A DNA stretch of 64,000 nucleotides from Daphnia pulex (taxonomy: Eukaryota > Arthropoda > Branchiopoda > Diplostraca > Daphniidae). The notes under the pieces were generated by a model. That model worked only from the letters and a program-made list of their open reading frames with translations, had not been told where the DNA came from and did no database searches. The stretch is from assembly GCF_021134715.1 (NCBI RefSeq), contig NC_060018.1, forward strand, positions 10,123,501 to 10,187,500, given 5' to 3'. A program made the position numbers and the translations under genes. This document shows positions 15,988-55,986 of this stretch, one piece after another (position 1 is the first letter of the stretch; each line of letters begins with the position of its first letter).

Positions 15988-16061
15988 CGCCCCTAGGTGG
16001 GATCGAACCACCAGCCTTCCGGTTAACAGCCGAACGCGCTAGCCAATTGCGCCACAGAGGC
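15988..16061 (-). tRNA. tRNA-Asn(GTT), U1, intact
   Basis: 74 nt on the minus strand. The acceptor GCCTCTG pairs with TAGGGGC, the anticodon is GTT in ctgttaa and the B box is ggttcgatccc. This is the only uninterrupted tRNA-Asn of the array. The matching genes in U2 and U3 are split by a LINE in the anticodon loop. Confidence 0.92.
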
Positions 16062-16772: not shown

Positions 16773-16892
16773 TGTCAAGAGTGGGATTTGAACCCACGCC
16801 TTCATTGAAGACCAGAACACTGCAACTTCTCTATATTGAATCAAGGAATATATCCTTGAGTCTTGCGACTTAGACTGCTCGGCCATCCTGAC
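16773..16892 (-). tRNA. tRNA-Leu(CAA) with intron, U1
   Basis: 120 nt on the minus strand, including an intron after the anticodon. The acceptor GTCAGGA pairs with TCTTGAC. The anticodon CAA is in gactcaag, the long variable arm is present and the B box is gggttcaaatccc. One anticodon-stem pair is mismatched (CAAGA against TCTGG), unlike the copy at 31571. A TTTT lies about 10 nt downstream. Confidence 0.87.
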
Positions 16893-17063: not shown

Positions 17064-17464
17064 ATGCTGATTGGCTAACGACACCCATAAGGAAAGCAAA
17101 CATTACATTTTTACTAAGGCCAACACGAACAAAATCTTGCAGTTGACTTCCGGTATGCCATAGTGTAGCCCGTACGAAACTTTTAGCTAGTTCCGCACTA
17201 GAAATAGCTACGAAGTTAGGAGTATTTAGCTAGAAATATTCAGACTAAAATTTTTAAATTCCACATTGGGAATTTTAGGGTAGTTTTAGCTGTTTTTTCT
17301 AGCTAGAAATCTTAGATTGTAATTCAAAAATTCGTTCGACTTCAACTGTGTTGACCTTGTCTATTTTAGCTCTTTACAGCAGACGATAATTAAATTTTTG
17401 TCTTCTTGGTCTGATGTACGCCCTTTAATCCTCAGAGTTTTTCTAGCTCTGTTACAGTTCAGTC

Positions 17465-20400: not shown

Positions 20401-20467
20401 TCCGCCTGGCGCTCTTGGCGTAATTGGTGTATGGGATAAAATATCAATTCCGTGTCAATTAATATAA
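17465..20467 (+). CDS. DIRS Gag-like/reverse transcriptase/RNase H polyprotein
   Basis: A 1000-residue frame with an ATG start just after the left repeat. Residues 1-80 are Ser/Pro/acidic, and residues about 255-318 form a Gly/Asn/Arg-rich basic tract that may bind nucleic acid. The reverse transcriptase covers about 390-560, with GFRPVINLKGLN, then LDLKDAYFTVP, then the catalytic YLDD at 526-529. The RNase H region (about 690-810) has GWGAV, NELELQA and MDNTTAV. The protein copies the element's RNA into DNA. The last ~60 codons overlap the recombinase frame. The frame is open throughout, so the protein could still be made. The mid-protein Gag boundary is inferred. Confidence 0.92.
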   Translation: MPSSSSASEGSESDSSSGNVKRTRKTPPVAPVARREIANELPDDPAVAGPANPGDENPGAEPGDPDATRQDEYSFELSRRKSKKLRKLMFEGVSSAEAKVLRNRFTPIFRKKSVKLQIPELDEAMYRRLKSLKNSTASKALIDPQEKSLSALQYKIIDIARPLLFLWENRQADPASREAVRTALNLWGGLLNDVTDRRRANILKQTSPSFTTLLSEPDKFDEEESTSLFGSHFIQEMVKAANDEAALNSIGRMSGPSNRSSNGRSFRGGQHGNYVGNGSTSNFQSRQPGSSIPSQRGASSSRGFNNQFNNRGRYDVVPFNSLKIEKESEPIVAGRLRNFARCWGQFTKDPWILEVVSDGLKLDLIERPVQVIEPCNMSFGEPQTILCNEEIANLLKKGAVSEVANPVFISSLFVIPKKTGGFRPVINLKGLNQYVTHHHFKMEGLSFLKHLVQPGDWLAKLDLKDAYFTVPMHLSDQELLQFRWQGKVYQFNCLPFGLSSAPWAFTKLLKPLVAFFRERGIRLVIYLDDILILGSSKEKLTEDVGLVRSVLESVGFIVNEEKSSFEPSQNIEFIGLIVDTIAMSLSLPQPKVKSVITSCRKLISQSKPSLREIASVMGNFSWAIPAVPFARAHYRNLQMLYNDRLKHTADLDTKVSLSEDAITDLRWWIAHLPSVNGKSLTTAEPSLIICSYASLLGWGAVCNNVTSNGPWSFEDSKRHINELELQAAFNALQAFTHSLKNIAVLLMMDNTTAVAYVNKAGGTRSKEMCKLATEMASWCESKGILLQAAYLPGSLNSIADTESRRSHDASDRQLEKTAFRAISEKWPINIDLFATSWNAQTPKFASWFPQPGASLNDALSFSWVGLKGYAFPPFFLIKNCLSKIRREKSEIILVCPYWPSQPWFPVLLELASSTPAIFRPSENLLLSSLGDPHPLCMKPTFLLTAWKLSGDVSKGKIFRNQLLSYYWQPTGRPHTLLTSPPGALGVIGVWDKISIPCQLI

Positions 20468-21273
20468 ATAGTATCCTAAAATTTTTATCGGACGCGTTTG
20501 AATCTGGGAAAGCGTACAGCACAATTAATGTTTATCGCTCAATGTTGTCCGGCACGTACGACCAAATTGAAGGTTTTGATATAGGTTGCCATACCCTCGT
20601 TCTAAAACTGATGAAAGGAATTTTCAACAGTAATCCCCCGAAGCCCAAATATTCTAACACGTGGGACTTGAATATAGTGCTGGACTATTTTAAAACGGCC
20701 CCAAGCGAAGATCTCGGCCTGCCCCCATTAGCCTGCAAACTAGTTACTCTTCTATCATTTGCCACTATGCTAAGAGTCTCGGAATTGGCATCCATCGATA
20801 GGAAGTCGGTAATATTTTCGGACAACTCAGTTAATTTCTCTCTTTGCAAACCAAGGAAATCCCAAAGAGCTGGGCTGCTTAGGTCACTGACCGTGAAAAA
20901 ACTGGAGGATCAATCAATCGATCCGGTCCACTGTTTAGGCCTCTATGTTCATTCAACAGACACCCTGAGAAGCGAAGTTAACGAGCACCGGCTGTTCATC
21001 GGCTCGGTGAAACCTCACAAACCCGTTAGCGGGTCAACGATAGCTAGGTGGATTAAAAAGCAACTGGAAGAAGCGGGGGTAGATACATCCACCTTTTCAG
21101 CGCACTCAACGAGAGGCGCGGCAGCGTCCAAAGCAGCTACGCTTGACGTGCCCATCCAATCAATATTAAGCGCAGCAGACTGGGCCTCTGAGTCCACCTT
21201 TTCAAGATTCTATCGTCGAGAAGTTGCAGAACCTACAGTAGCTGAGCTAATAATGGCGGGAGCTCCGAGTTAG
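20299..21273 (+). CDS. DIRS tyrosine recombinase (one in-frame stop)
   Basis: Tyrosine recombinase that integrates the circular DNA form. From 20299 the frame reads as an N-terminal SAM-like segment (AYKSAWRSWRNWC) and then meets a TAA at 20437-20439. It continues open from 20440 to 21273. The catalytic set is visible: Arg in LRVSELAS, His and Arg in HSTRG, Trp in DWASES, and the nucleophile Tyr in FYRRE near the C-terminus. It overlaps the reverse transcriptase frame (+2 relative). No ATG stands right after the stop, so this copy is probably disabled unless the stop is read through or spliced around. Confidence 0.85.
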
Positions 21274-22164
21274 GCTCAAGATGTTAGGTGCTTTAAAATC
21301 ACAGTTGAAGTCGAACGAATTTTTGAATTACAATTAAAAATTGTTCGAGTGAGCGCGAAGCGCGAATGAGGAACAATTTGGATTGTATAAGAAAATAAGG
21401 AGACTTCAACTGTCTCAAAAACCCGCATGCCTACCCACCCTATTTAATAATCTTCTTGTTATTTGTTTAAACAGATTTTATCAGAATCGCGGTGGCTTCA
21501 GAGGCGCCCACTAAGGAGGCACAGAAACCATCGCAAAGATCTGAGGATTAAAGGGCGTACATCAGACCAAGAAGAAAAAAATTTAATTATTGTCTGCTGT
21601 AAAGAGCTAAAATAGACAAGGTCAACACAGTTGAAGTCTCCTTATTTTCTTATACAATCCAAATTGTTCCTCATTCGCGCTTCGCGCTCACTCGAACAAT
21701 TTTTAATTGAAGGTAGCTTGAAATTTTCTCGCTACCATACCAATTGACGAAAAAGGGATTTTCCGCGGGCGCTTCCTTTATTAGCCTGGTCACCCATCCA
21801 GTTACTGTTTTAAAATTATTTGCTGCACTTATTTAGCTATGGTCGCTGGTTGTCCGGATCTTTTTTTTTTTATATTTAAACGATTTATTGTCACAATTAA
21901 AATTTAAATTGCTTTACAGATACTTGGGGCATTTACGTGATTTGTGACATAAGTGACTTGCTGTGGCCAAGGAGAAACATAACAAAGAAAAACAAAAAGA
22001 ACCAATTTCGAGACGGAATTGAAAGAGGACAAATGATTTTGGTGAAAAATAGAAAATTTAACAATACGACATCTGGGGGGGATCCAAGAAATTATAATTG
22101 TAATGAGAGAACAATGTTGTATAAAGATAAGACGAAATTTGTGGAGAATTTTGAGAAAGAATAT

Positions 22165-23710
22165 TTAAGGATTAGGAGGTGACATCTGGGGAGAATTTTT
22201 TGAAAGAAGGAGGCTTGACCAGAGAGACTGTATTTCGTTTATGGCTGGGGTGAGGTTTTGGCTGCGGGCGGTCCAGACGGTGATGATGTAGGATTGGATG
22301 AGGGCCAGTATTTTCTCTTTATTGGGGCCATTTCCAATGTCTCCATTTATTGTTGATTTGAGTGTTTTTTGACATCCAAGTTTCGTTAGTTGAATTCGAA
22401 GCCATAAACTGATGTGGACTTTCTCAGAACAGAGTAACATAAGATGGTCGTCAGTTTCTTGGCCGCCATTGCATAGAGGACATTGGTCATTTATAGAAAG
22501 TCTGAGGCTTGTGAGGCGCATTTTGGTAGGGAGCTGATTATGGTTGAAATCCCAGACCAGTTCAGCGTTTCTTCCTTTCATTTTGGCCACCCAACGCCAG
22601 ATGGAAGCCCAGTCGAGGTCTGGTTTCGCAACTTCGGTTCTCCCTGGTTGCCCAAGGTTAGCAATCAGGTGATTGTAGGTGGCGCGGTGATTGGATACGG
22701 TTGACGATGTGAAGATGCCAGCTTTAAGTAGATCGGTGATGGTTGAAAGTGCGGTGGTGAAATATGGATGTGATGAATGGGTTGCATTTAATCTGGGCTG
22801 GATGATTTGTTGAAGGAGATTCTTGAGGTGTGGACCCAACCAATAAACGGCTGCAGCTCTCTCAATAGCCTCGGGATGGATTAAAGATTTAAAGATTTGA
22901 CGGGTGAAAAGGGATTGGAAGAATTGAAAAAGTAAGGTGACTCCAAGTCCACCTTGGAGTCGGGGGCGGATCAAAACATTTAGGGGTGGGTGCTCTCTTC
23001 TTTGTGCCCAAAGAAATTTGTTGCATTTTTGTTGGAGGAGAAGGGCTTGGGTTTTGTTGCAAGGGAGTACATGAGCTATATGAATAAGTTGTGATAAGAC
23101 ATGTTGTTTGATGAATAGGACGCGACCATAAAAAGTGAAATGACGGTGTGTGTTTGTGATAAGAATATTTTGTATGATGTTGAACTGTCTTTGCCAATTG
23201 TCTCTTACTGTTGTTTTTATTTCAGAATAAAAAGTAATTCCAAGAATCTTCAAATTGTCTACTTGAGTTATCCAATCATGTGGCCAAGTACGTTTAGGAT
23301 GAGTTTGATTGAAATTGCTTCTACGTGGGATCGAACTCCTAACCTCAGGAATCCCAGCCGACGCCGCTACCGTCTGCGCTACTACGGTCTGTGGACAATG
23401 ATATAAGGTCCAAGTGCCTAGACCAAGTAATTTTGTCTTCCCCTTGTTAATACGTGCATTTGTCCAGGCACAAAATTCTAGAATAATCTCGCATGCACGA
23501 CGTACATCTTTCATTGATGAGACAAAAACTACTAGATCATCTACATATGCACGAACTTTGATGCGTTTTCCGTAGTGTTCAATTCCGTCAATACCCCTAG
23601 ACAAGCAAACTAAAAGCGGTTCAATATAGAGGGCAAACAGATGGACTGACAGAGGGCACCCCTGTCGCACGGATTGTGCATTGTCCACAGTACCGACTAT
23701 GTCATTACCG
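22165..23710 (-). CDS. LINE L1: C-terminal reverse transcriptase fragment (ORF2)
   Basis: The surviving part of ORF2 is open to the stop at 22165. It begins within the RT palm, with VRQGCPLSVHLFALY and the catalytic AYVDDLVVF. It continues through the thumb region to a C-terminal Cys/His finger, CPLCNGG..H..C, as in zf-RVT domains. A tRNA-like sequence (23317-23394) is read in frame as VVAQTVAASAGIPEV. The upstream endonuclease and fingers are missing through truncation, so it cannot be active on its own. Confidence 0.88.
23317..23394 (-). other. tRNA-like module 2 in LINE L1 ORF2
   Basis: On the coding strand: A-box-like tagcgcagacggtagcg and B-box-like agttcgatccc at the spacing of a tRNA, with ends of limited pairing. 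It encodes VVAQTVAASAGIPEVRSSIP in the ORF2 frame. Confidence 0.65.
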
Positions 23711-24482
23711 TCTGGCAGCTTCTGATGTTTCTTAAATATTTGTTTCCATTAATATTTGATCCTATTATAGCTATGTCGATAATTCTTCACTTAGACTTCA
23801 AATTATAAAACTAATCAAATAGAATCAAGTAAAAACTTATATAAAAATAAAGAATTAAAAAATATATATTTTAAACATTTTACCTATTGCCCATACCTAT
23901 TAAGCTATTATACTATGCGTAGGTTATACATAGAAAAATCTGTAGGCCTATTTTGTGTTTAGGACTACCCCATATGCAGCGTTTTTTAACCTTTTTTTAA
24001 ATCACGATTTATTTCGCGATCAAATTAAAAAGCGAAACCCTAGATTAAAAATTCCATACTAAAATTAGCTGTAACAGTTAGGAAATATATTAGGGGGGAA
24101 AAATTCAAGCTGATTTTAAGGTCAATTATTTCAAGCCAGATCATAAAACGTCCTAGCTAGGAAAATAAAAGCTGATTTCTGCTAAAAAAAAGTGGAGCGA
24201 AACCCTAGATGAAAACTTCCATACTGGAATTAGCTTACAGTTAGGAAATATATTTAGGGAGAAAAATTCAAGCTGGTTTTCAGGTTAATTTTTTCAAGCA
24301 AAATAAGAAAACGCCCTAGCTTGAAGAAAAAGCTGATTTCTGCTAAAAAAAGGGGGAATTATGTTGAGGTAAAAAATTTCGAGGTGATTGCAAGCATCAT
24401 AGCTGGTTTGATTTTTTAGCCTAGCACCGCGCGAGCTGTTATTAGCTAACAGTTAAAATTTAAGCTAAAAGTTTCGTACGGG

Positions 24483-24999: not shown

Positions 25000-26991
25000 G
25001 GGGAGTATTTTTTAGAAAGACTATCAATCAGATGCATATTTGGAATTTATGCAAAGGCCATATTCTTTGTGAATGAAATCTACAATCTGACAATCTGAAA
25101 ATATTCGCAATGCTGTATCCGGAAGAAGTCAACAGACAGGGGGAGATCAATGGCGACTGCTTTTGTTGTGCAGGTGCTATAACCCTTAAGATACTTTCTT
25201 CTTTAGCCAATCGACAATGCCCTTTGGTTTTAGGAATGTGGGAAATGACTTGTGCTGGATGGGGAAGAAGTCCATAAACACCAGAAGAGGGGAATCTATG
25301 ATAGATTACACCTGAACCTGGAACAGTAGCTCCACAGAGAGAATGAACATGATGCGTGTGCACCCTACGCTGCAAATGTTCAGTAGATTCAACAGTCATC
25401 AGCTAAAGAAGCCATATCGTGAGTGTGCACTCTACAATGCAAGCTTTAGTCGGGTATAAAGTCATGAGAAGACGAGTTCAAAATAGAGCAAGAGATTTCA
25501 ATTACCATGCGCCCCTGGGTGGGATCGAACCACCAGCCTCCCGGTTTTTTTTAATATTTAAACGATTTTTTGTCACGATTAAAATTTAAATTGCTTTGAG
25601 GATACTTGGGGCATATACGAGATTTGTGACATAAGTGACTTGCTGTGCCCAAGGAGAAACATAACAAAGAAAAAGAAACATTTCGAGACGGAAATGAGAG
25701 AGGACAAATGATTTTGGTGAAAAATGTGAAATTTAACAATACGACATCTGGGGGGGATCCAAGAAATATTAATTGTAATGAGAGAACAATTTTGTATAAA
25801 GATAAGAAGAAATCTGTTGAGAATTTTGAGAGGGAATATTTATGGATTAGAAGGTGACATCTGGGGAGAATTTTTTGAATGAAGGAGGCTTGACCAGAGA
25901 GACTGTATTTCATTGATGACTGGGGTGAGGTTTTGGCTGCGGGCGGTCCAGACGGTGATGATGTAGGATTGGATGAGTGCCAATATTTTCTCTTTATTGG
26001 GGCCATTTCCAATGTCTCCATTTATTGTTGATTTGAGTGGTTTTTGACATCCAAGTTTCGTTAGTTGAATTCGGAGCCATAAACGTATGTGAACTTTTTG
26101 AGAACATAGTAACATAAGATGGTCGTCAGTTTCTTGGCCGCCATTGCATAGAGGACATTGGTCATTTCTAGAAAGTCTGAGGCTTGTGAGGCGCATTTTG
26201 GTAGGGAGCTGATTATGGTTGAAATCCCAGACCAGTTCAGCGTTTCTTCCTTTCATTTTTGCCACCCAACGCCAGATGGAAGCCCAGTCGAGGTCCGGTT
26301 TCGCAACTTCGGTTCTCCCTGGTTGCCCAAGGTTAGCGATCAGGTGATTGTAGGTGGCGCGGTGATTGGATACGGTTGACGATGTGAAGATGCCAGCTTT
26401 AAGTAGATCGGTGATGGTTGAAAGTGCGGTGGTGAAGTATGGATGTGATGAATGGGTTGCATTAAATCTGGGCTGGATGATTTGTTGAAGGAGATTCTTG
26501 AGGTGTGGACCCAACCAATAAACGGCTGCAGCTCTCTCAATAGCCCCGGGATGGATTAAAGATTTAAAGATTTGACGGGTGAAAAGGGATTGGAAGAATT
26601 GAAAAAGTAAGGTGACTCCAAGTCCACCTTGGAGTCGGGGGCGGATCAAAACATTTAGGGGTGGGTGCTCTCTTCGTTGTGCCCAAAGAAATTTGTTGCA
26701 TTTTTGTTGGAGGAGAAGGGCTTGGGTTTTGTTGCAAGGGAGTACATGAGCTATATGAACAAGTTGTGATAAGACATGTTGTTTGATGAATAGGACGCGA
26801 CCATAAATAGTGAAATGACGGTGTGTGTTTGTGATAAGAATATTTTGTATGATGTTGAACTGTCTTTGCCAATTGTCTCTTACTGTTGTTTTTATTTCAG
26901 AAGAAAAAGTAATTCCAAGAATTTTCAAGTTGTCTACTTGAGTTATCCAATCATGTGGCCAAGTACGTTTAGGATGAGTTTGATTGAAATT

Positions 26992-27069
26992 GCTTCAACG
27001 TGGGATCGAACTCCTAACCTCAGGAATCCCAGCTGACGCCGCTACCGTCTGCGCTACTACGGCCTGTGG
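26992..27069 (-). other. tRNA-like module 2 in LINE L2 ORF2
   Basis: Same module as at 23317, with A- and B-box-like blocks on the coding strand. Here its 3' end carries the TGA stop that breaks ORF2. Confidence 0.65.
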
Positions 27070-27987
27070 ACATTGATTTAAGGTCCAAGTGCCTAGACCA
27101 AGTAATTTTGTCTTCCCCTTGTTAATACGTGCATTTGTCCAGGCACAAAATTCTAGAATAATCTCGCATGCACGACGTACATCTTTCATTGATGAGACAA
27201 AAACTACTAGATCATCTACATATGCACGAACTTTGATGCGTTTTCCGTAGTGTTCAATTCCGTCAATACCCCTAGACAAGGAAACTAAAAGCGGTTCAAT
27301 ATAGAGGGCAAACAGATGGACTGACAGAGGGCACCCCTGTCGCACGGATTGTGCATTGTCCACAGTACCGACTATGTCATTACCGTTCAATGGGCATAGT
27401 TCAGTTATACTGTACGGCGTTTTCAACCAATCAACAAAGAGGGGGGATAGCCCATGGCTGTCATTACTTCCCACAGAACGTCTCGATTGACAAGGTCATA
27501 TGCTTTCTCTAAATCGTACGCGATAATGGCGGCCGGTTTGAGAGAAGATACCTCTTTTGATTTACGACCTGTATTATCAATGACATCTCGGATTAAACAC
27601 AAGCTGTCAAAGATATAGCGGCCGGGTTCACCACCTTTTTGATGTGAGTCTAGAGAGTTTTGAAGAGATTTTCTCAGACGAAAAGCCAATACTGACGCGA
27701 TTAACTTGTAATCGGTATTTAACAAAGAGATTGGTCGGTAATCGGTGATTTTACTCGGTGTTGGGATTTTTGGGACTAATCTTATAGCTGCCCTTCCCTG
27801 CGACGGCTGGAGTTTTCTTTTGTCGAGGACGTAATTCATCATTTCCAGAAAATGAACACCAATAACATCCCAAAATTTTATATAAAACTCAAAAGGAATG
27901 CCATCTGTGCCCGGGGCCTTGTTCTTTTTAGTTGCCTTAAGGGCGTTGTTAATTTCATCTACTATGAACGGATCTACAAGAAAGTTG

Positions 27988-28060
27988 TCACTCTCCGGGA
28001 TCGAACCTAGTATTCCTCGATTCAACGCTTGAGCGTTTAACGACTGAGCTACCACTGATA
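27988..28060 (-). other. tRNA-like module 1 in LINE L2 ORF2
   Basis: On the coding strand: A box ggtagctcagtcgtt and B box ggttcgatccc, about 73 nt in all. It is translated in frame as VVAQSLNAQALNRGILGSIP between the endonuclease and RT domains. The stems are partly mismatched. Confidence 0.7.
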
Positions 28061-29380
28061 CACCCGAATCGTTTTTAGTGGGTTTTGTACGGGTAAGTGC
28101 ACCTCTAATCCCTTCTAGAAATTTTCCAGCTAATTGGGTATTGGGGGAGGGCTGGTTCTGAAAAATTCTACTAAAGTGTTCAATTATTTCTTGGTTAATC
28201 TGCTCAGGTTGGGTAATTTTACAGTTATCATTAGTTTTGAGCTGAGTGATCAGAGACTTCTGGAAATTGCTCGTTGACTTGTTCATATGAAAGGTAGATG
28301 GCTCTTCTTCGGCTATACTTTGAACGCGTGAACGTATTGCAAATCCCCTCAATGCTTCTCGCTCCCAGGCTAGAAACTCACGTTTAAACTCCATGTAACG
28401 CGCATGATTGAAATTTACATTGTTCACGGTTTCTTTTAGTTGATGTTGGAGCAATTTCCTTTTGACTCTCTGATCACAGATTCTCTTTTTACAATAGTTC
28501 ATTGATAATCGCCTGAGGCTAGGTTTGAAAATAATCTCCCACCAATGATCTACGTTTTCAATACGGGATGGGTGTTGAGACATTTCTTCAATAAAGACAT
28601 GCACCAAGTTTATATATTCTTCTTCCTCAAGAATTGATGAGTTAAGTTTCCATAAATTCCTTGACTTGTTCCTCACTACACTAGGAGGGGTGGTGCTGTT
28701 TATATACCCTACGATTGGTCTGTGATCCCCGAGTGGTAAGTCGTGCAAATGGATATCAGAAAATTTTACGTGATGGTGGCAATAAATTCGGTCCAATCTA
28801 GCCTGGCTAGCCGCACAATTGTACGTCCAACAAGGTTCATTTTTCCGAATTTCTCTCCAGACATCTGTTAATGAAAGGGCTTTTACTAAATCTCGGAGGG
28901 GTTCTAGTAATGCTAGTCTAATTTTAGGTGGTGTTGTCTTGCTACTTTTACGGTCATCGATCTCGTCAACGGCATTAAAATCTCCCAATATAATTGCTGG
29001 TGCCTTATACTGGGCAACATAAGCCGGAATAGTTTGCCGGAGGAAAGAATCTCTATAACTTTTATTTTGGTCACCAGATGGGGCGTAAATACACACGAAA
29101 GCAAGACCCTTTACTTCCATGGCTATCAGCCTCCCCTCCGGTTCAAACAAAATTTTTTTGGCGCTCAGCCCGTGTCGTACTAGGATGGCTGTCCCATGTT
29201 GTCTAGGACCGAGATTTGTGTGCATCTGGTAATGTTTAGTAAATACGGTGCTAGAGTGAAATACTACTTCTTGCAAACATATAATATCAAGTTTATGATG
29301 TAAAAAGAAATTGAGTATTATTTGAAGTTTGTCAGGTGACGATATTCTGTTGATATTATATGTCGCGATGTTAGTCATGA

Positions 29381-30880
29381 TTAATATTTAAATTTGGGTT
29401 TAGAGGGTTGGGTTTTGTTATCGTGGGCTTTTTTCCTTCTAACGGCCTCCATTGCTTTGAGAGTTTTATCTTCTATGGGGGTTGATGGAGTGCCGAGGGG
29501 GACGCCCAAGGACTCCTGAGTCTCACTCACATGACTAGCCTCCTGGCTATCAAGTGGCCGTTGTCCTGGCTGAATACTCCCACCAGAAAAAGAAATGTCT
29601 TCATCAGGATTTGAAATCGAAACCACCTCGGTTGCATCCATCTCTTCAACCACCTCGTTATCCATCTGATCTATCGTGGATGGAATAGATGGTACTCCAG
29701 GTGAGATTGGAGCGGGTGGAACATCGTTCCTCCCAGAGAGGGCGGGAAAAGAATTAATGTCCACACCCGGTATCGAAACTGGAACCTCTCGAGTCGGAGA
29801 CCCGAGTTCAACCAACTGAGCTACACCAGATTCAATTTCCTCAGCTACCTCGCCCGAGCCAGAGGAAGAGGCAGTACGACTCCTCTTTTTTGATTGTTTT
29901 TGTTGGTCACGGAATTCCCTCGTCTGTTTCATTTTCTTTTTCTTGACCAATTTGGACGCAACAGACGAACCTACACAGTTGGTGTCTTCAGCGTCAGCAT
30001 CGTTGTCAGAAGAAGATTCAGTTCCATCGGGTTTCGAAATCGGATCCTCTGGAGCTCCATCAAGAACGACAACAGTCGACGTCGTTGGCCTCTGGGCTAA
30101 CTCAGGGAATGTATCAGCGTCAACAGTTGGAGCAATTGGCATTTGTCCGCCACCAATCGGGCCTGTCTCCTGGGGCTTCCTAACAGTTGTCCTAACTGGG
30201 CCACGATTTGTTAGTAATACACTACTATAGCTACGTGTTCCAATGGGGCCTTTTGAAATGGTGCTGGGGTTGGTTAAACTACGGGGTTGCTTGGGGCAAT
30301 TAGCTAAGACATGGGTGGGAGAATCACACATGCGGCATGTGTGCATTTGCCCTGCATAAGACACCAATATTGGTTCCTTGTAGCTTCCAAAGGTGATATA
30401 AGACGGAATGCTCTTGTGGATTTCCATATCCACGTTGACAATTCCAGTCTTTATCCCGTTCCACCTTGGGAGCGATCTATCCTGATACGTGTCCCAAAAA
30501 ATCCGAGAAATCACTCCATACTCACGCAATCTCTTGTTTAGCAGGCTTAGGTCATCATCGAATTTGAAATGTTGAATTCTAACGCGTACAAGGTTAACTG
30601 ACCTATCTCTCACTCTAATTTTGACCTCCTTGCCACTAATGACTACTGATTCTTTAGCACTAAATTTATTCAAAAATTCAATATGGTCATTGACGGTCTT
30701 GAACCCAATTCGGAAAACGCAAATAGCTCGTCCTGGTAGGCGAGAAACTGCATCAAAGATGCTATCAGATTCATTACTGTCGTGCTCGAAACATTCGTAG
30801 AACTCATGCCTGGTCACTTCAGTATTACCAAAAGAGATTTCAGCAGTACGTGGCCAGACGTCTGGGGATTCCGATCCCAT
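29381..30880 (-). CDS. LINE L2 ORF1 (CCHC nucleic-acid-binding protein)
   Basis: Predicted RNA-binding protein of the LINE particle, about 500 residues, starting at MGSESPDVWPR (the same start lies at 39423 in L3). The first ~200 residues are globular and contain conserved segments such as RVRIQHFKFDDDL. A zinc knuckle CRMCDSPTHVLANC (CX2CX4HX4C) lies near residue 190. The rest is acidic and Ser/Pro-rich with a Lys/Arg patch (KKRSRTASSS). A tRNA-like module is read as GVAQLVELGSPTREVPVSIP near residue 350-375. The stop is 3 bp before the ORF2 start. The frame is intact; a longer upstream extension from 30925 is possible. Confidence 0.85.
   Translation of the reverse strand: MGSESPDVWPRTAEISFGNTEVTRHEFYECFEHDSNESDSIFDAVSRLPGRAICVFRIGFKTVNDHIEFLNKFSAKESVVISGKEVKIRVRDRSVNLVRVRIQHFKFDDDLSLLNKRLREYGVISRIFWDTYQDRSLPRWNGIKTGIVNVDMEIHKSIPSYITFGSYKEPILVSYAGQMHTCRMCDSPTHVLANCPKQPRSLTNPSTISKGPIGTRSYSSVLLTNRGPVRTTVRKPQETGPIGGGQMPIAPTVDADTFPELAQRPTTSTVVVLDGAPEDPISKPDGTESSSDNDADAEDTNCVGSSVASKLVKKKKMKQTREFRDQQKQSKKRSRTASSSGSGEVAEEIESGVAQLVELGSPTREVPVSIPGVDINSFPALSGRNDVPPAPISPGVPSIPSTIDQMDNEVVEEMDATEVVSISNPDEDISFSGGSIQPGQRPLDSQEASHVSETQESLGVPLGTPSTPIEDKTLKAMEAVRRKKAHDNKTQPSKPKFKY
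29762..29831 (-). other. tRNA-like module 3 in LINE L2 ORF1
   Basis: On the coding strand: ggtgtagctcagttggtt (A box) and agtttcgatacc (weak B box), about 70 nt. It reads in frame as GVAQLVELGSPTREV. Confidence 0.6.
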
Positions 30881-31570
30881 TTTACCCACAATAACAGGGG
30901 CAAAAGGACGGGGAGAAAAATGCATAAAGAGGGAACAAAACCAAAATGGCGCTCAACAAACAACAAGGGAAACAGGACACACAAGCAACAATACAACAAA
31001 AGAGAAACTAAAAAAGAACAAATAGTTTTTTTACTCACAGCAAGATGTCACACTTGGAAGATCAGTTGGACACGTCTAGTCACAGCCGAACGCGCTAGCC
31101 AATTGCGCCACAGAGGCATGTTAATTAACTAACGACACCCATTAGGAAAGCAAACAATACATTTTTGTGCAGCTGTGCTGTGCTGTGCCTGGAAGAATTT
31201 CTTCTTGTTCCTATTTCATAAACATCGTGGATGTTTTATGAATTCATTAATTCAATGAACTTTAAATGGTGTGTTGGACATTAATTTACATATCCTGTAA
31301 GAATAAATCGCTTTGAATAAGCGAAACAGTAAATATATCAAATTCAAATTCATTGAAGTGGTGTTTGCCAGCTCGTCAAAGCAGTATTTTTGATTTTTCT
31401 TCAACACCAATGCAAGATATGACTTATAAGAAGTTATTATGTCAATTATTCATGTGTGAACGAAGTAGAAATGAAAATCCATATTTTTACCTAAAATGTA
31501 TCATTATTGAAAATTGACTTCAATTCCGTAGGTTGGCTAGTCTTCATGTGAATTCAGAAAACCATAAGTT

Positions 31571-31690
31571 TGTCAGGAGTGGGATTTGAACCCACGCCTT
31601 CATTGAAGACCAGAACACTGCAATTTTTCTATATTGAATCAAGGAATATGTCCTTGAGTCTGGCGCCTTAGACTGCTCGGCCATCCTGAC
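31571..31690 (-). tRNA. tRNA-Leu(CAA) with intron, U2
   Basis: 120 nt. The acceptor GTCAGGA pairs perfectly with TCCTGAC, and the anticodon stem CCAGA with TCTGG. Anticodon CAA is followed by the intron. This is the best-preserved of the three tRNA-Leu copies. Confidence 0.92.
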
Positions 31691-31826
31691 CACATAATAT
31701 GTACCTAAATACCTTGTCCCTTAGTTATGTGGCATTGAAACTCTTTTCTGCACTTGCTCGCTGCACTGGCTCGCTGCACTGGCAGAGGGAAGAAGTCCAT
31801 AAACACCAGAAGGGAATCTATGATAG

Positions 31827-31861
31827 CAGCCGAACGCGCTAGCCAATTGCGCCACAGAGGC
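31827..31861 (-). pseudogene. Half tRNA-Asn (5' half), U2
   Basis: Same 35-nt fragment and breakpoint (cagccg) as in U0 and U1. Confidence 0.85.
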
Positions 31862-31966
31862 ATGCTGATTGGCTAACGACACCCATAAGGAAAGCAAACA
31901 TTACATTTTTACTAAGGCCAACACGAATAAAATCTTGCAGTTGACTTCCGGTATGCCATAGTGTAG

Positions 31967-33029
31967 CCCGTACGAAACTTTTAGCTAGTTCCGCACTAGA
32001 AATAGCTTAGGAGTATTTAGCTAGAAATATTCAGACTAAAATTTTTAAATTCCACATTGGGAATTTTAGGGTAGTTTAAGCTGTTTTTTCTAGCTAGAAA
32101 TCTTAGATTGAAGGTAGCTTGAAATTTTCTCGCTACCATACCAATTGACGAAAAAGGGATTTTCCGCGGTCGCTTCCTTTATTAGCCTGGTCACCCATCC
32201 AGTTACTGTTTTAAAATTATTTGCTGCACTTATTTAGCTATGGTCGCTGGTTGTCCGGATCTGGCAGCTTGTGATGTTTCTTAAATATTTGTTTCCATTA
32301 ATATTTGATCCTATTATAGCTATGTCGATAATTCTTCACTTAGACTTCAAATTATAAAACTAATCAAATAGAATCAAGTAAAAACTTATATAAAAATAAA
32401 GAATTAAAAAATATATATTTTCAACATTTTACCTATTGCCCATACCTATTAAGCTATTATACTATGCGTAGGTTATACATAGAAAAATCTGTAGGCCTAT
32501 TTTGTGTTTAGGACTACCTCATATGCAGCGTTTTTTTAACCTTTTTTATATCACGATTTATTTCGCGATCAAATTAAAAGCGAAACCCTAGATTGAAAAT
32601 TCCATACTAAAATTAGCTGTAACAGTTAGGAAATATATTAGGGAGGAAAAATTCGAGCTGATTTTAAGGTCAATTATTTCAAGCCAGATCATAAAACGTC
32701 CTAGCTAGAAAAATAAAAGCTGATTTCTGCTAAAAAAAGTGGAGCGAAACCCTAGATGAAAACTTCCATACTGGAATTAGCTTACAGTTAGGAAATATAT
32801 TTAGGGAGAAAAATTCAAGCTGGTTTTCAGGTTAATTTTTTCAAGCAAAATAAGAAAACGCCCTAGCTTGAAGAAAAAGCTGATTTCTGCTAAAAAAAAG
32901 GGGAATTATGTTGAGGTAAAAAATTTCGAGGTGATTGCAAGCATCATAGCTGGTTTGATTTTTTAGCCTAGCACCGCGCGAGCTGTTATTAGCTAACAGT
33001 TAAAATTTAAGCTAAAAGTTTCGTACGGG
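31967..33029. mobile_element. Element A, copy A3 (uninterrupted)
   Basis: 1063 bp with perfect CCCGTACGAAACTTTTAGCT ends and no secondary insertion. It is the reference for mapping the insertions in A2 and A4. No long open frame. It lies in the tRNA-Val relic, whose 3' half follows at 33030-33090. Confidence 0.87.
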
Positions 33030-33305
33030 AGAGGTTATCACATCGTCTTCGCAAGCTGAAGATCCTCAGTTCGTTCCTAGGTGGAAGCATCAGAAAAGCT
33101 ATGGGAACAAATAATATCCGAAGAAAAGTAAAAAAAAAATGAGTAATAGTAGTGTATCTCATCTAGACGATTAGAAGTATTAGGCAACTGTGAACTACCC
33201 ACAAAACCAAACAAACATAATAAAAGTTCGTTCACGGCTAGCGGACAGGACAAAATGTCTTCAATAAAACTTGGTTGATGACATTGGAATAGAGTCAAGT
33301 TTCAA

Positions 33306-33379
33306 GCCTGGCTAGCTCAGTCGGTAGAGCATGAGACTCTTAATCTCAGGGTCGGGGGTTCGAGCCCCCCCGTTGGGCG
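33306..33379 (+). tRNA. tRNA-Lys(CTT), U3, one-base insertion
   Basis: As in U1 but with seven instead of six C between the B box and acceptor (gagcccccccgttggg), giving 74 nt. The extra base disturbs the T/acceptor stacking, so function is doubtful. Confidence 0.75.
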
Positions 33380-33466
33380 TTACATATTTGCAAATATTGT
33401 AGATTTAATTTAGATTTTGGGAGTCCATCGTTAGTATTTTGTAGTCATTTCAGAAAAATTCATGAA

Positions 33467-33539
33467 GTTTCCATAGTGTAGTGGTTATCACGTCGCCCTA
33501 ACACGCTGAAGGTCCTCAGTTCGATCCTGGGTGGAAACA
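33467..33539 (+). tRNA. tRNA-Val(AAC), U3, stem mutation
   Basis: 73 nt with anticodon AAC and intact acceptor and T arms. G to C in the anticodon stem (cgtcgccct for cgtcggcct) creates a C-C mismatch, so it may be impaired. Confidence 0.78.
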
Positions 33540-35537
33540 GGGGAGTATTTTTTAGAAAGACTATCAATCAGATGCATATTTGGAATTTATGCAAAGGCCA
33601 TATTCTTTGTGAATGAAATCTACAATCTGACAATCTGAAAATATTCGCAATGCTGTATCCAGAAGAAGTCAACAGACAGGGGGGATCAATGGCGAATGCT
33701 TTTGTTGTGCAGGTGCTATAACCCTTAAGATACTTTCTTCTTTAGCCAATCGACAATGCCCTTTGGTTTTAGGAATGTGGGAAATGACTTGTGCTGGATG
33801 GGGAAGAAGTCCATAAACACCAGAAGAGGGGAATCTATGATAGATTACACCTGAACCTGGAACAGTAGCTCCACAGAGAGAATGAACATGATGCGTGTGC
33901 ACCCTACGCTGCAAATGTTCAGTAGATTCAACAGTCATCAGCTTAAGAAGCCATATCGTGAGTGTGCACTCTACAATGCAAGCTTTAGTCGGATATAAAG
34001 TCATGAGAAGAAGAGTTCAAAATAGAGCAAGAGATTTCAATTACCATGCGCCCCTGGGTGGGATCGAACCACCAGCCTTCCGGGTTTTTTTTTATATTTA
34101 AACGATTTATTGTCACAATTAAAATTTAAATTGCTTTACAGATACTTGGGGCATTTACGTGATTTGTGACATAAGTGACTTGCTGTGGCCAAGGAGAAAC
34201 ATAACAAAGAAAAACAAAAAGAACCAATTTCGAGACGGAATTGAAAGAGGACAAATGATTTTGGTGAAAAATATAAAATTTAACAATACGACATCTGGGG
34301 GGATCCAAGAAATTATAATTGTAATGAGAGAACAATGTTGTATAAAGATAAGACGAAATTTGTGGAGAATTTTGAGAAAGAATATTTAAGGATTAGGAGG
34401 TTACATCTGGGGAGAATTTTTTGAAAGAAGGAGGCTTGACCAGAGAGACTGTATTTCGTTTATGGCTGGGGTGAGGTTTTGGCTGCGGGCGGTCCAGACG
34501 GTGATGATGTAGGATTGGATGAGTGCCAGTATTTTCTCTTTATTGGGGCCATTTCCAATGTCTCCATTTATTGTTGATTTGAGTGGTTTTTGACATCCAA
34601 GTTTCGTTAGTTGAATTCGAAGCCATAAACTGATGTGGACTTTCTCAGAACAGAGTAACATAAGATGGTCGTCAGTTTCTTGGCCGCCATTGCATAGAGG
34701 ACATTGGTCATTTCTAGAAAGTCTGAGGCTTGTGAGGCGCATTTTGGTAGGGAGCTGATTATGGTTGAAATCCCAGACCAGTTCAGCGTTTCTTCCTTTC
34801 ATTTTGGCCACCCAACGCCAGATGGAAGCCCAGTCGAGGTCCGGTTTCGCAACTTCGGTTCTCCCTGGTTGCCCAAGGTTAGCGATCAGGTGATTGTAGG
34901 TGGCGCGGTGATTGGATACGGTTGACGATGTGAAGATGCCAGCTTTAAGTAGATCGGTGATGGTTGAAAGTGCGGTGGTGAAGTATGGATGTGATGAATG
35001 GGTTGCATTAAATCTGGGCTGGATGATTTGTTGAAGGAGATTCTTGAGGTGTGGACCCAACCAATAAACGGCTGCAGCTCTCTCAATAGCCTCGGGATGG
35101 ATTAAGGATTTAAAGATTTGACGGGTGAAAAGGGATTGGAAGAATTGAAAAAGTAAGGTGACTCCAAGTCCACCTTGGAGTCCGGGGCGGATCAAAACAT
35201 TTAGGGGTGGGTGCTCTCTTCGTTGTGCCCAAAGAAATTTGTTGCATTTCTGTTGGAGGAGAAGGGCTTGGGTTTTGTTGCAAGGGAGTACATGAGCTAT
35301 ATGAACAAGTTGGGATAAGACATGTTGTTTGATGAATAGGACGCGACCATAAAAAGTGAAATGACGGTGTGTGTTTGTGATAAGAATATTTTGTATGATG
35401 TTGAACTGTCTTTGCCAATTGTCTCTTACTGTTGTTTTTATTTCAGAAGAAAAAGTAATTCCAAGAATTTTCAAGTTGTCTACTTGAGTTATCCAATCAT
35501 GTGGCCAAGTACGTTTACGATGAGTTTGATTGAAATT

Positions 35538-35615
35538 GCTTCTACGGGGGATCAAACTCCTAACCTCAGGAATCCCAGCCGACGCCGCTACCGTCTGTGC
35601 TACTACGGCTTGTGG
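35538..35615 (-). other. tRNA-like module 2 in LINE L3 ORF2
   Basis: Same module as at 23317, with weakened boxes (tagcacagacggtagcg, gtttgatcccc). Open in frame. Confidence 0.6.
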
Positions 35616-36533
35616 ACATTGATTTAAGGTCCAAGTGCCTAGACCAAGTAATTTTGTCTTCCCCTTGTTAATACGTGCATTTGTCCAGGCACAAAATTCT
35701 AGAATAATCTCGCATGCACGACGTACATCTTTCATTGATGAGACAAAAACTACTAGATCATCTACATATGCACGAACTTTGATGCGTTTTCCGTAGTGTT
35801 CAATTCCGTCAATACCCCTAGACAAGCAAACTAAAAGCGGTTCAATATAGAGGGCAAACAGATGGACTGACAGAGGGCACCACTGTCGCACAGATTGTGC
35901 ATTGTCCACAGTACCGACTATGTCATTACCGTTCAATGGGCATAGTTCAGTTATACTGTACAGCGTTTTCAACCAATCAACAAAGAGGGGGGATAGCCCA
36001 TGGCTGTCATTACTTCCCACAGAACGTCTCGATTGACAAGGTCATATGCTTTCTCTAAATCGTACGCGAGAATGGCGGCCGGTTTGAGAGAAGATACCTC
36101 TTTTGATTTACGACCTGTATTATCAATGACATCTCGGATTAAACACAAGCTGTCAAAGATATAGCGGCCGGGTTCACCACCTTTTTTATGTGAGTCTAGA
36201 GAGTTTTGAAGAGATTTTCTCAGACGAAAAGCCAATACTGACGCGATTAACTTATAATCGGTATTTAACAAAGAGATTGGTCGGTAATCGGTGATTTTAC
36301 TCGGTGATGGGATTTTTGGGACTAATCTTATAGCTGCCCTTCCCTGCGATGGCTGGAGTTTTCTTTTTTCGAGGACGCAATTCATCATTTCCAGAAAATG
36401 AACACCAATAACATCCCAAAATTTTATATAAAACTCAAAAGGAATGCCATCTGTACCCGGGGCCTTGTTCTTTTTAGTTGCCTTAAGGGCGATGTTAATT
36501 TCATCTACTGTGAACGGATCTACAAGAAAGTTG

Positions 36534-36606
36534 CCACTCTCCGGGATCGAACCTAGTACTCCTCGATTCAACGCTTGAGCGTTTAACGACTGAGCTACCA
36601 CTGATA
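36534..36606 (-). other. tRNA-like module 1 in LINE L3 ORF2
   Basis: Same as at 27988: ggtagctcagtcgtt and ggttcgatccc on the coding strand, translated as VVAQSLNAQALNRGVLGSIP. Confidence 0.7.
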
Positions 36607-37926
36607 CACCCGAATCGTTTTTAGTGGGTTTTGTACGGGTAAGTGCACCTCTAATCCCTTCTAGAAATTTTCCAGCTAATTGGGTATTGGGGGAGGGCTG
36701 GTTCTGAAAAATTCTACTAAAGTGTTCAATTATTTCTTGATTAATCTGCTCAGGTTGGGTAATTTTACAGTTATCATTAGTTTTGAGCTGAGTGATCAGA
36801 GACTTCTGGAAATTGCTCGTTGACTTGTTCATATGAAAGGTAGATGGCTCTTCTTCGGCTATACTTTGAACGCGTGAACGTATTGCAAATCCCCTCAATG
36901 CTTCTCGCTCCCAGGCTAGAAACTCACGTTTCAACTCCATGTAACGCGCATGATTGAAATTTACATTGTTCACGGTTTCTTTTAGTTGATGTTGGAGTAA
37001 TTTCCTTTTGACTCTCTGATCACAGATTCTCTTTTTACAATAGTTAATTGATAATCGCCTGAGGCTAGGTTTGGAAATAATCTCCCACCAATGGTCTACG
37101 TTTTCAATACGGGATGGGTGTTGAGACATTTCTTCAATAAAGACATGCACCAAGTTTATATATTCTTCTTCCTCAAGAATTGATGAGTTAAGTTTCCATA
37201 AATTCCTTGACTTGTTCCTCACTACACTAGGAGGGGTGGTGCTGTTTATATACCCTACGATTGGTCTGTGATCCCCGAGTGGTGAGTCGTGCAAATGGAT
37301 ATCAGAAAATTTTACGTGATGGTGGCAATAAATTCGGTCCAATCTAGCCTGGCTAGCCGCACAATTGTACGTCCAACAAGGTTCATTTTTCCGAATTTCT
37401 CTCCAGACATCTGTTAATGAAAGGGCTTTTACTAAATCTCGGAGGGGTTCTAGTAATGCTAGTCTAATTTTAGGTGGTGTTGTGTTGCTACTTTTACGGT
37501 CATCGATCTCGTCAACGGCATTAAAATCTCCCAATATAATTGCTGGTGCCTTATACTGGGCAACATAAGCCGTAATAGTTTGCCGGAGGAAAGAATCTCT
37601 ATAACTTTTATTTTGGTCACCAGATGGGGCGTAAATACACACGAAAGCAAGACAATTTACTTCCATGGCTATCAGCCTCCCCTCCGGTTCAAACAAAATG
37701 TTTTTGGCGCTCAGCCCGTGTCGTACTAGGATGGCTGTCCCATGTTGTCTAGGACCGAGATTTGTGTGCATCTGGTAATGTTTAGTAAATACGGTGCTAG
37801 AGTGAAATACTACTTCTTGCAAACATATAATATCAAGTTTATGATGTAAAAAGAAATTGAGTATTATTTGAAGTTTGTCAGGTGACGATATTCGGTTGAT
37901 ATTATATGTCGCGATGTTAGTCATGA

Positions 37927-39423
37927 TTAATATTTAAATTTGGGTTTAGAGGGTTGGGTCTTGTTATCGTGGGCTTTTTTCCTTCTAACGGCCTCCATTG
38001 CTTTGGGAGTTTTATCTTCTATGGGGGTTGATGGAGTGCCGAGGGGGACGCCCAAGGACTCCTGAGTCTCACTCACATGACTAGCCTCCTGGCTATCAAG
38101 TGGGCGTTGTCCTGGCTGAATACTCCCACCAGAAAAAGAAATGTCTTCATCAGGATTTGAAATCGAAACCACCTCGGTTGCATCCATCTCTTCAACCTCC
38201 TCGTTATCCATCTTATCTATCGTGGATGGAATAGATGGTACTCCAGGTGCGTTTGGAGCGGGTGGAACATCGTTCCCCCCAAAAAGGGCGGGAAAAGAAT
38301 TAATGTCCACACCCGGTATCGAAACTGGAACCTCTCGAGTCGGAGACCCGAGTTCAACCAACTGAGCTACACCAGATACAATTTCCTCAGCTACCTCGCC
38401 CGAGCCAGAGGAAGAGGCAGTACGACTCCTCTTTTTTGATTGTTTTTGGTGGTCACGGAATTCTCTCGTATGTTTAATTTTCTTTTTCTTAACCGATTTG
38501 GACGCAACAGACGAACCTACACAGTTAGTGTCTTCAGCGTCAGAATCGGTGTCAGAAGAAGATTCAGTTCCATCGGGTTTCGAAATTGGATCTTCTGGGG
38601 CTCCATCAAGAACGACCACAGTCGACGTCGTTGGCCTCTGGGCTAACTCGGGGAATGAATCAGCGTCAACAGTTGGAGCAAATGGCATTTGCCCGCCACC
38701 AATCGGTTCTGTCTCCTGGGGCTTCCTAGCAGTTGTCCTAACTGGCCCACGATTTGTTAGTACACTACTATAGCTACGTGTTCCAATGGGGCCTTTTGAA
38801 ATGGTGCTGGGAGTGGTTAAACTACGGGGTTGCTTGGGGCAATTAGCTAAAACATGGGTGGGAGAATCACACATGCGGCATGTCTGCATTTGCCCTGCAT
38901 AAGACACCATTATTGGTTCCTTGTAGCTTCCAAAGGTGATATAAGACGGGATGCTCTTGTGGATTTCCATATCCACATTGACAACTCCAGTCTTTATCCC
39001 GTTCCACCTTGGAAGCGACCTATCCTGGTACGTGTCCCAAAAAATCCGAGAAATCACTCCATACTCACGCAATCTCTTGTTGAGCAGGCTAAGGTCATCA
39101 TCGAATTTGAAATGTTGAATTCTAACGCGTACAAGGTTAACTGACCTATCTCTAACTCTAATTCGGACCTCTTTGCCACTAATAACAACAGACTCTTTAG
39201 CACTAAATTTATCCAAGAATTCAATGTGGTCTTTGAAGGTCTTGAACCCAATTCGGAAAACACAAAAAGATCGTCCTGGTAGGCGACAAACTGCATCAAA
39301 GATGCAATCAGATTCGTTACTACCCTGCTCGAAACATTCGTAGAATTCATGCCTGGTCACTTCAGTATTACCAAAAGAGATTTCGGCAGTACGTGGCCAG
39401 ACGTCTGGGGATTCCGTTCCCAT
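37927..39423 (-). CDS. LINE L3 ORF1 (CCHC nucleic-acid-binding protein)
   Basis: Counterpart of the protein at 29381-30880, starting MGTESPDVWPR. Zinc knuckle CRMCDSPTHVLANC, acidic/Ser-Pro C-terminal half, tRNA-like module read as GVAQLVELGSPTREV. An in-frame ATG at 39555 would add a hydrophobic leader not shared with L2, so I prefer 39423. The frame is intact. Confidence 0.85.
   Translation of the reverse strand: MGTESPDVWPRTAEISFGNTEVTRHEFYECFEQGSNESDCIFDAVCRLPGRSFCVFRIGFKTFKDHIEFLDKFSAKESVVISGKEVRIRVRDRSVNLVRVRIQHFKFDDDLSLLNKRLREYGVISRIFWDTYQDRSLPRWNGIKTGVVNVDMEIHKSIPSYITFGSYKEPIMVSYAGQMQTCRMCDSPTHVLANCPKQPRSLTTPSTISKGPIGTRSYSSVLTNRGPVRTTARKPQETEPIGGGQMPFAPTVDADSFPELAQRPTTSTVVVLDGAPEDPISKPDGTESSSDTDSDAEDTNCVGSSVASKSVKKKKIKHTREFRDHQKQSKKRSRTASSSGSGEVAEEIVSGVAQLVELGSPTREVPVSIPGVDINSFPALFGGNDVPPAPNAPGVPSIPSTIDKMDNEEVEEMDATEVVSISNPDEDISFSGGSIQPGQRPLDSQEASHVSETQESLGVPLGTPSTPIEDKTPKAMEAVRRKKAHDNKTQPSKPKFKY
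38308..38378 (-). other. tRNA-like module 3 in LINE L3 ORF1
   Basis: Same as at 29762: A box gtgtagctcagttggtt and weak B box gtttcgatacc on the coding strand, read in frame. Confidence 0.6.
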
Positions 39424-40126
39424 TTTACCCACAATAAAGGGGCAAGGAGACGGAAAAAGAAACAATACAAAAAAAATTGAACAAAAAGCAAAATGGCGCT
39501 TAACAAACAATAAGAGAAACACGAAAGACAAGCAACAATACAATAAAGAGAACAAAAAAAAGAACAGATAGTTTTTTTACTCACAGCAAGATGTCACACT
39601 TGGAAGATCAGTTAGACACGTCTAGTCACAGCCGAACGCGCTAGCCAATTGCGCCACAGAGGCATGTTAATTAACTAACGACACCCATTAGGAAAGCAAA
39701 CAATACATTTTTGTGCAGCTGTGCTGTGCTGTGCTGTGCTGTGCCTGGAAGAATTTCTTCTTGTTCCTATTTCATAAACATCGTGGATGTTTTATGAATT
39801 CATTAATTCAATTAACTTTAAATGGTGTATTGGACATTAATTTACATATCCTGTAAGAATAAATCGCTTTGAATAAGCGAAACAGTAAATATATCAAATT
39901 CAAATTCATTGAAGTGGTGTTTGCCAGCTCGTCAAAGCAGTATTTTTGATTTTTCTTCAACACCAATGCAAGATATGACTTATAAGAAGTTATTATGTCA
40001 ATTATTCATGTGTGAACGAAGTAGAAATGAAAATCCATATTTTTACCTAAAATGTATCATTATTGAAAATTGACTTCAATTCCGTAGGTTGACTAGTCTT
40101 CATGTGAATTCAGAAAACCATAAGTT

Positions 40127-40246
40127 TGTCAGGAGTGGGATTTGAACCCACGCCTTCATTGAAGACCAGAACACTGCAACTTCTCTATATTGAATCAAGG
40201 AATATATCCTTGAGTCTTGCGACTTAGACTGCTCGGCCATCCTGAC
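40127..40246 (-). tRNA. tRNA-Leu(CAA) with intron, U3
   Basis: 120 nt. The acceptor is perfect (GTCAGGA with TCCTGAC) and the anticodon is CAA with an intron. It has the same anticodon-stem mismatch (CAAGA) as the U1 copy. Confidence 0.87.
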
Positions 40247-55960: not shown

Positions 55961-55986
55961 CTCGTCTGCTTGGAAAATGTTTATGA

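Follow-up and report, generated by a model that had tools for sequence, protein, structure and literature searches.

A site-specific LINE in tRNA-Asn genes of Daphnia pulex with tRNA-like modules in its open reading frames

The stretch of Daphnia pulex DNA analysed here (64,000 nucleotides of NCBI RefSeq assembly GCF_021134715.1, contig NC_060018.1, positions 10,123,501 to 10,187,500; hereafter the window) holds a tandem array of transfer RNA (tRNA) genes together with copies of a long interspersed nuclear element (LINE) and a DIRS-like element. The tRNA genes of the array were named by ARAGORN as Lys, Val, Asn and Gly, to which an intron-bearing gene, read by eye as Leu, is added. Two of the LINE copies (A and B) are full length and one (C) is truncated, and three tRNA-like modules, M1, M2 and M3, lie within the open reading frames (ORFs) of the element (Table 1). 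By examining the junctions of LINE and tRNA, the statistics of the tRNA-like sequence, and the distribution and variation of the modules among related elements, we hypothesize that a LINE targeting tRNA genes captured tRNA-like sequence at sites that tolerate it, and that this sequence is now drifting, a reading to which we assign a probability of about 0.6.

Table 1. Coordinates of the LINE copies, target gene halves and tRNA-like modules (position 1 is the first letter of the window; boxes, matches to the A and B box consensuses; RT, reverse transcriptase; aa, amino acids)
Feature	Position	Strand	Remarks
LINE copy A, full length	25545..31082	-	between halves of tRNA-Asn(GTT) gene; self-comparison, junctions, Pfam
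LINE copy B, full length	34084..39628	-	same position, another tRNA-Asn unit; self-comparison, junctions, Pfam
LINE copy C, 5'-truncated, 3' part of ORF2 only	21863..23711	-	outside tRNA gene; self-comparison
M1 copy A, in ORF1	29762..29831	-	boxes 16/18, spacing 44
M1 copy B, in ORF1	38308..38378	-	boxes 16/18, spacing 44
M2 copy A, between endonuclease and RT	27988..28060	-	boxes 16/18, spacing 44; in net insertion of ~30-34 aa relative to sisters
M2 copy B	36534..36606	-	boxes 16/18, spacing 44
M3 copy A, downstream of RT palm motifs	26992..27069	-	boxes 16/18, spacing 44; in-frame TGA near end
M3 copy B	35538..35615	-	boxes 15/18, spacing 44; in net insertion of ~36 aa relative to sisters
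M3 copy C	23317..23394	-	boxes 16/18, spacing 44
Intact (empty) tRNA-Asn(GTT), neighbouring unit, reference target	15988..16061	-	
tRNA-Asn 5' half with A box, directly upstream of copy A	31083..31118	-	end coordinate by alignment to intact gene 15988-16061
tRNA-Asn 3' half with B box, directly downstream of copy A	25510..25546	-	boundary ambiguous within A-run
tRNA-Asn 5' half at copy B	39629..39664	-	
tRNA-Asn 3' half at copy B	34049..34083	-	

In the long copies, ORF2 consists of an APE-type endonuclease, a reverse transcriptase and a zf-RVT domain, recognized by Pfam in pieces of copy A (Exo_endo_phos, 5.8e-14; RVT_1, 6.4e-11 and 3.2e-14; zf-RVT, 4e-09). Human LINE-1 ORF2p is the top PDB match of the piece spanning endonuclease and reverse transcriptase and is among the best for the C-terminal piece of the latter; ORF1, to which Pfam gave no match, shows by eye a CCHC-like zinc knuckle. 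Both long copies change frame in ORF2 between the parts holding M2 and M3, and copy A has an in-frame TGA (26995-26997) close to the end of M3, so that both look disabled as read from their sequence. The genome searched comprised 133 Mb in 13 contigs (C numbers denote contigs, the window being on C2, and L numbers the LINE loci recovered). At least 17 copies are no less than 96% identical over 640 or more of the 654 query residues; 12 of these lie on C3 between 2.22 and 2.36 Mb. Five loci (L012, L014, L017, L018 and L019) have an open frame of 1182 amino acids, and the stretch aligned in each of two genome searches is free of stops.

The initial annotation of this DNA had placed the LINE inside a tRNA gene, and the junctions identify that gene as a split tRNA-Asn(GTT). 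The gene is interrupted at the anticodon loop in the two window copies, in two copies on C12 and in one on C3, both junctions having been read: tRNA sequence runs to GTTCGGCT, followed by the LINE 5' end GTGACTAG, the terminal A-run, and tRNA sequence again from CCGG (copy B has one extra C at the junction). A 5'-truncated copy on C7 also lies within a tRNA-Asn gene at the same site, which brings the contigs with tRNA-Asn junctions to four (C2, C3, C12 and C7), and at least 40 full-length tRNA-Asn matches remain, 40 of 125 candidates having been scored. Target specificity is strong but not absolute, because copy C sits outside tRNA genes, at a site that has CCGGA as does the tRNA-Asn site. Overall, this is a LINE that has an endonuclease of the APE type and, as its specific insertion site, the anticodon loop of tRNA-Asn(GTT) genes. 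Within the arrays at C12:2939930-2959571 and C3:2217093-2355071, empty tRNA-Asn genes are often 1.24 kb apart, and adjacent LINE copies in the C3 array are often about 8 kb apart.

Sequence comparison indicates that the family has been recently mobile and has returned to the same site, some copies having landed there independently. Over 4939 coding sites the divergence of copy A from a C12 copy is 0.59%, although their 3' flanks are only 84.0% identical over 394 positions; between copies A and B it is 2.44% over 4952 coding sites, with flanks that are 98.8% identical. Shared ancestry of whole units explains neither of these mismatches between LINE and flank, for which gene conversion among LINE copies may be an alternative explanation. 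The C7 copy is uninformative on this point, its LINE (about 91% identity) and flank (92.9%) being near-equal in divergence. A further copy, on C10 (L040, C10:5389350-5389950), has ahead of it what by eye looks like the 5' half of a tRNA-Asp(GTC), and then duplicated tRNA-Asn 5' sequence in one imperfect (partly scrambled) and one longer piece; the sequence on its 3' side is given as N, and ARAGORN called no tRNA at that place. This arrangement suggests that the transcript began inside an upstream tRNA-Asn half, and the presence of tRNA-Asn 5' sequence ahead of the LINE at a new site indicates that tRNA pieces get copied along with the element.

The initial annotation had reported tRNA A and B boxes in seven stretches sense to the LINE, and all seven were recovered in the sequence, on the minus strand. 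Boxes were scored as matches at the 18 fixed positions of the A and B consensuses (TRGYNNARNNGG and GGTTCGANTCC, respectively), and every module copy reaches 15 or 16 with an A-to-B spacing of exactly 44 nucleotides (nt); by this measure, five types of tRNA present in the window reach 14-17, with a spacing of 44 in Lys and Val and of 45 in Asn. When the tRNAs, the LINE-tRNA junctions and the modules were masked, no position in the rest of the window scored 16 or more on either strand, and six scored 15, of which two are one LINE site in its two copies. Among 1000 dinucleotide shuffles of copy B, one site of at least 16 occurred in 13 and two such sites in none; the actual copy B has two (its M3 scores 15) and copy A has three. 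The peptides are as described earlier, with VAQ and SIP, except that M3 of copy B has LIP instead; the earlier description needs correcting for the TGA in M3 of copy A and for the ORF2 frame change of both long copies. Random synonymous recoding reached the observed score, per 20000 trials, 1054 times for M1, 418 times for M2, and for M3 892 times (copy B), 170 times (copy A) and 158 times (copy C). The codons of the modules are more tRNA-like than the peptides require. ORF1 holds a weaker, fourth A/B-like site (minus strand, 29673 and 38219; 15/18, spacing 50), which follows M1 at about 150 nt; a site as good occurs in 150 of 1000 LINE shuffles, so that chance suffices for it.

A resemblance to tRNA at the level of structure is not supported. 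The Rfam tRNA model (RF00005) matched none of the modules, even when each was isolated, found nothing over 25500-31800 at E up to 10 but a tRNA at 31571-31690, and had all of its matches in the window outside the modules; the cloverleaf has accordingly been lost or was never present. The covariance check proposed with the initial annotation therefore went against the modules as structures and not as sequences. A weak Rfam match of sno_ZL8 over M1 (26.5 bits, the cut-off being 52) was treated as chance, as were other weak Rfam matches. The silence of the tRNA model is what one would expect if the modules resembled tRNA by accident, but two sites of 16 or more arose in no shuffle while copy A has three, all with spacing 44, and M2 and M3 coincide with lineage-specific insertions (below). 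We consider a chance resemblance extremely improbable, and these comparisons support modules that are tRNA-like in sequence beyond chance.

Alignment with sister LINEs (obtained by tblastn at roughly 25-55% identity) places M2 and M3 within net insertions, each of about 30-36 amino acids. M3 is absent in all 11 sister loci that are readable on both sides (L034, L036, L038, L050, L053, L056, L057, L058, and loci at 5.177 Mb on C12, 8.782 Mb on C2 and 8.060 Mb on C4), the skip being judged by eye from translation in some; these are loci rather than independent families, several being copies of one sister family. For example, L050 reads LGLGNWKHQSQWPLPWL where the LINE here has LGLGTW, about 36 more residues, and then KRTWPHDWI. 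M2 is absent in all four readable sisters (L034, L036, L038 and L053), with a skip of about 30-34 residues. Left out of the M3 count were L037 (a degenerate relative) and short partial matches not spanning M3, and out of the M2 count L050-L052 and L054-L058, in which the stretch was unaligned or sequence was lacking. Human L1 ORF2p likewise lacks about 31-33 residues at each of the two places. M1 is probably an insertion as well; the ORF1 alignment to L034 ends before it, so that the earlier expectation of modules absent from sister LINEs holds for M2 and M3, the M1 region being unaligned. In L037, a closer relative, the M1 region is recognizable at about 77%, M3 survives as remnants and M2 falls within a deletion. 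A box scan of 15 loci, including L037, gave no score of 16 or more; the one score of 15 is that of L034, antisense to the LINE.

The initial annotation had also named conservation across genome copies as support; the modules are present in most copies examined. Among 22 aligned rows the boxes of M1 score 8+8 in 16 (five others being deleted or not covered and one partly covered), those of M2 score 7+9 or one off in 20 (two not covered), and those of M3 score 8+8 in 20 and 8+7 in two. Across 21 copies the modules have 23 nonsynonymous (N) and 9 synonymous (S) events, a ratio of nonsynonymous to synonymous polymorphism (pN/pS) of 1.01, compared with 212 and 135 events and a ratio of 0.45 in the rest of the ORFs. 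The N:S counts and pN/pS ratios are 9:3 (1.18) in modules versus 87:95 (0.26) elsewhere for variants seen in at least two copies, 11:5 (0.84) versus 122:102 (0.34) for seven chosen copies, and 6:1 (2.37) versus 34:27 (0.36) for the five copies with a single open frame. The higher pN/pS of the modules is a trend, consistent in direction and based on small counts, to which M1 and M2 contribute 6:1 each and M3 11:7. Variable sites (22 rows) make up 31 of 222 (14.0%) in the modules and 354 of 4799 (7.4%) in other ORF sequence (p=0.001).

With regard to the boxes themselves, 7 of 69 box sites and 24 of 153 other module sites are variable, with no clear difference, and M1 has no substitution in its 23 box sites. 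Three copies on C3 (L020, L023 and L024) lack the B box of M1 owing to a shared 23-nt deletion, not a multiple of three in length. In copy B, stretches of at least four T occur 36 times on the sense strand, beginning with one of eight at about nt 68, and a TTTT lies 18 nt past the M1 B box. Since such runs should stop RNA polymerase III (Pol III), full-length Pol III transcription of the LINE is not supported. Measured on small counts, there is no clear purifying selection on module codons, and the boxes are not clearly protected. Taken together, the selection, box variation, deletion and T-run results favour the modules as passengers.

These results bear on two ways in which the modules might be kept for a function. 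They could be retained as DNA signals, with TFIIIC docked at their B boxes, which would give LINE copies the marks of Pol III-type chromatin or guide the element to tRNA genes. Both boxes are indeed high-scoring in most copies, the M1 box sites carry no substitution and are followed by the TTTT, and the element does target tRNA genes; however, box sites are not clearly less variable than other module sites, the three deletion copies have lost a B box, M3 is more variable than the rest of the ORFs, readable sister LINEs do without M2 and M3, and the scanned sister pieces contain no box pair of 16 or more. We regard it as improbable that a LINE hunting tRNA genes equipped its ORFs with several TFIIIC-binding A/B modules whose same bases are translated, and the role in Pol III recruitment or targeting that the initial annotation thought possible has found no support. 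If it were true, each copy would carry Pol III-type chromatin marks, insulating itself or bringing the machinery to tRNA genes. Alternatively, the inserts could matter as protein, the VAQ...SIP segments being kept because they help the ORF proteins. All three modules share in-frame VAQ and SIP-like ends and are retained by most copies, and the pN/pS of M3 alone is near that of its surroundings, but the ratio over the three modules is near 1, the nucleotides used resemble tRNA more closely than the peptides call for, and some copies have the deletion in M1 or the stop in M3, which makes a protein role very unlikely.

As for the source of the modules, every genome match falls within the LINE family (20 of 20, 21 of 21 and 22 of 22 per module, one of the 21 being the degenerate relative L037), and no module copy was found outside it by genome searches, which pass over very frequent words and may overlook sources that have diverged. 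The nearest tRNA is Lys for all three, with Asn close for M3, in a comparison made with no shuffled control. A possible though doubtful origin is that of three separate insertions of short interspersed elements (SINEs) with tRNA heads, from one or more SINEs, placed by target-primed reverse transcription into LINE copies that later became masters. Heads with A and B boxes are a hallmark of tRNA-derived SINEs and have in common with the modules these boxes at tRNA spacing in a degenerate cloverleaf, and inserts of about 30-36 amino acids are slightly longer than the tRNA-like core. The modules differ from SINE heads in lying inside LINE ORFs, with no visible tail, duplication or independent copies found: target duplication is not above shuffles, the sequence has no A-tail beside the modules, and the genome searches, which might overlook a diverged copy, gave no relative of a module at any other place. 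A partner SINE sharing the LINE's 3' tail was not found among 24 matches, the odd one of which, on C7, is the 5'-truncated LINE in a tRNA-Asn gene; the other 23, on C2, C3 and C12 at LINE places, were not inspected singly. Old insertions could have lost both A-tail and target duplication. Since the module copies found all lie in the LINE family, A-tail and duplication are lacking and no tail-sharing SINE was found, capture of tRNA-like RNA is favoured, with SINE insertion as its main rival; of the earlier proposal of captured SINE heads or tRNAs that became coding, the capture of tRNA-like sequence stands, its source being either one.

Under the favoured hypothesis of capture and drift, tRNA-like DNA would have entered coding sequence in an ancestor of the LINE family, probably from a tRNA or tRNA-like RNA by template switching or retroposition while the LINE was working at tRNA genes. 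The inserts may have survived because the positions tolerate extra residues and because VAQ...SIP is the one readable frame through tRNA-like sequence, and the modules would now drift as spacers. Several points weigh against this hypothesis. For a passive process, three captures in one family are many. The source sequence was not found, and the tRNA comparison set (Lys, Arg, Val, Asn and Gly types) is too narrow to assign one; insertion could not be shown for M1, and target duplication around the inserts gave a longest shared flank word of only 4-6 nt. The N:S contrast over all events is not significant (Fisher p=0.26), and its events are not independent, many copies being tandem duplicates. 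Moreover, M3 alone has a pN/pS of 0.59, near the 0.44 of its surroundings, so that relaxation rests on M1 and M2, while the excess of variable sites is due to M3, M1 and M2 being average. Most of the module arrangement is likely to be an evolutionary accident rather than machinery.

The element is an example of a tRNA-targeting LINE whose own genes took up tRNA-like sequence, as shown for two positions and probable for a third, and which remained mobile with it. It documents how site-specific retrotransposons can acquire parts of the very class of gene that they target, and it allows a natural experiment on whether TFIIIC is recruited to DNA that encodes protein.

Other features of the window include tRNAs with an anticodon-loop insertion of about 40 nt in the Rfam alignment (31571-31690, 40127-40246 and 16773-16892), which by eye are probably the intron-bearing tRNA-Leu, and the DIRS-like element (17447-21273), which has RVT_1 and Phage_integrase (tyrosine recombinase) domains in consecutive ORFs. 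An ORF on the plus strand at 60759-60990 resembles, by eye only, a PAX paired domain, and direct repeats about 191 bp apart and 78-84% alike occupy 55986-56571.

A literature search at the level of titles and abstracts, with partial coverage and with Repbase outside it, found no LINE with tRNA-like ORF inserts, which is weak evidence of absence; the LINE family itself may already be catalogued. The copies among the tRNA-Asn arrays of C12 and C3 are arranged like R2 in ribosomal DNA. Among known LINEs, Dewa belongs to the Tx1 clade. This zebrafish element inserts in the tRNA-Leu spacer (PMC3706591) and so is also specific to a tRNA locus, whereas the LINE here enters the body of the tRNA-Asn gene; identity with Dewa, which requires the spacer, was rejected on this ground. 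Target-specific LINEs outside the Tx1 and R1 clades are reported to have a restriction-like endonuclease, and those related to NeSL include elements specific for tRNA-Pro (NeSL-1_TV), tRNA-Arg (planarian LIN15_SM) and tRNA-Glu (LIN25_SM); they likewise target a tRNA gene but differ from the LINE here in its APE-type endonuclease (Exo_endo_phos), and tRNA-like coding inserts go unmentioned in the accessible part of that source (PMC4640811). In Dictyostelium, TRE5 and TRE3 are L1-group LINEs at tRNA loci, and the targets of TRE5-A must have intact B boxes, its ORF1 protein contacting TFIIIB in vitro (PMC5911963, PMC5006619); these elements keep a distance from the tRNA gene, inserting up- or downstream of it, whereas the LINE here inserts within the gene at one position. 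Dada DNA transposons favour two regions of tRNA genes, one near the A box and, in Dada-tL, -tA, -tD and -tV, one around the anticodon (PMC8869645, PMC3706591), and share the latter target with the LINE here, but they lack a reverse transcriptase and make 6-bp target duplications. LINEs of tRNA genes being already known, it is the coding arrangement with tRNA-like inserts that tentatively appears new.

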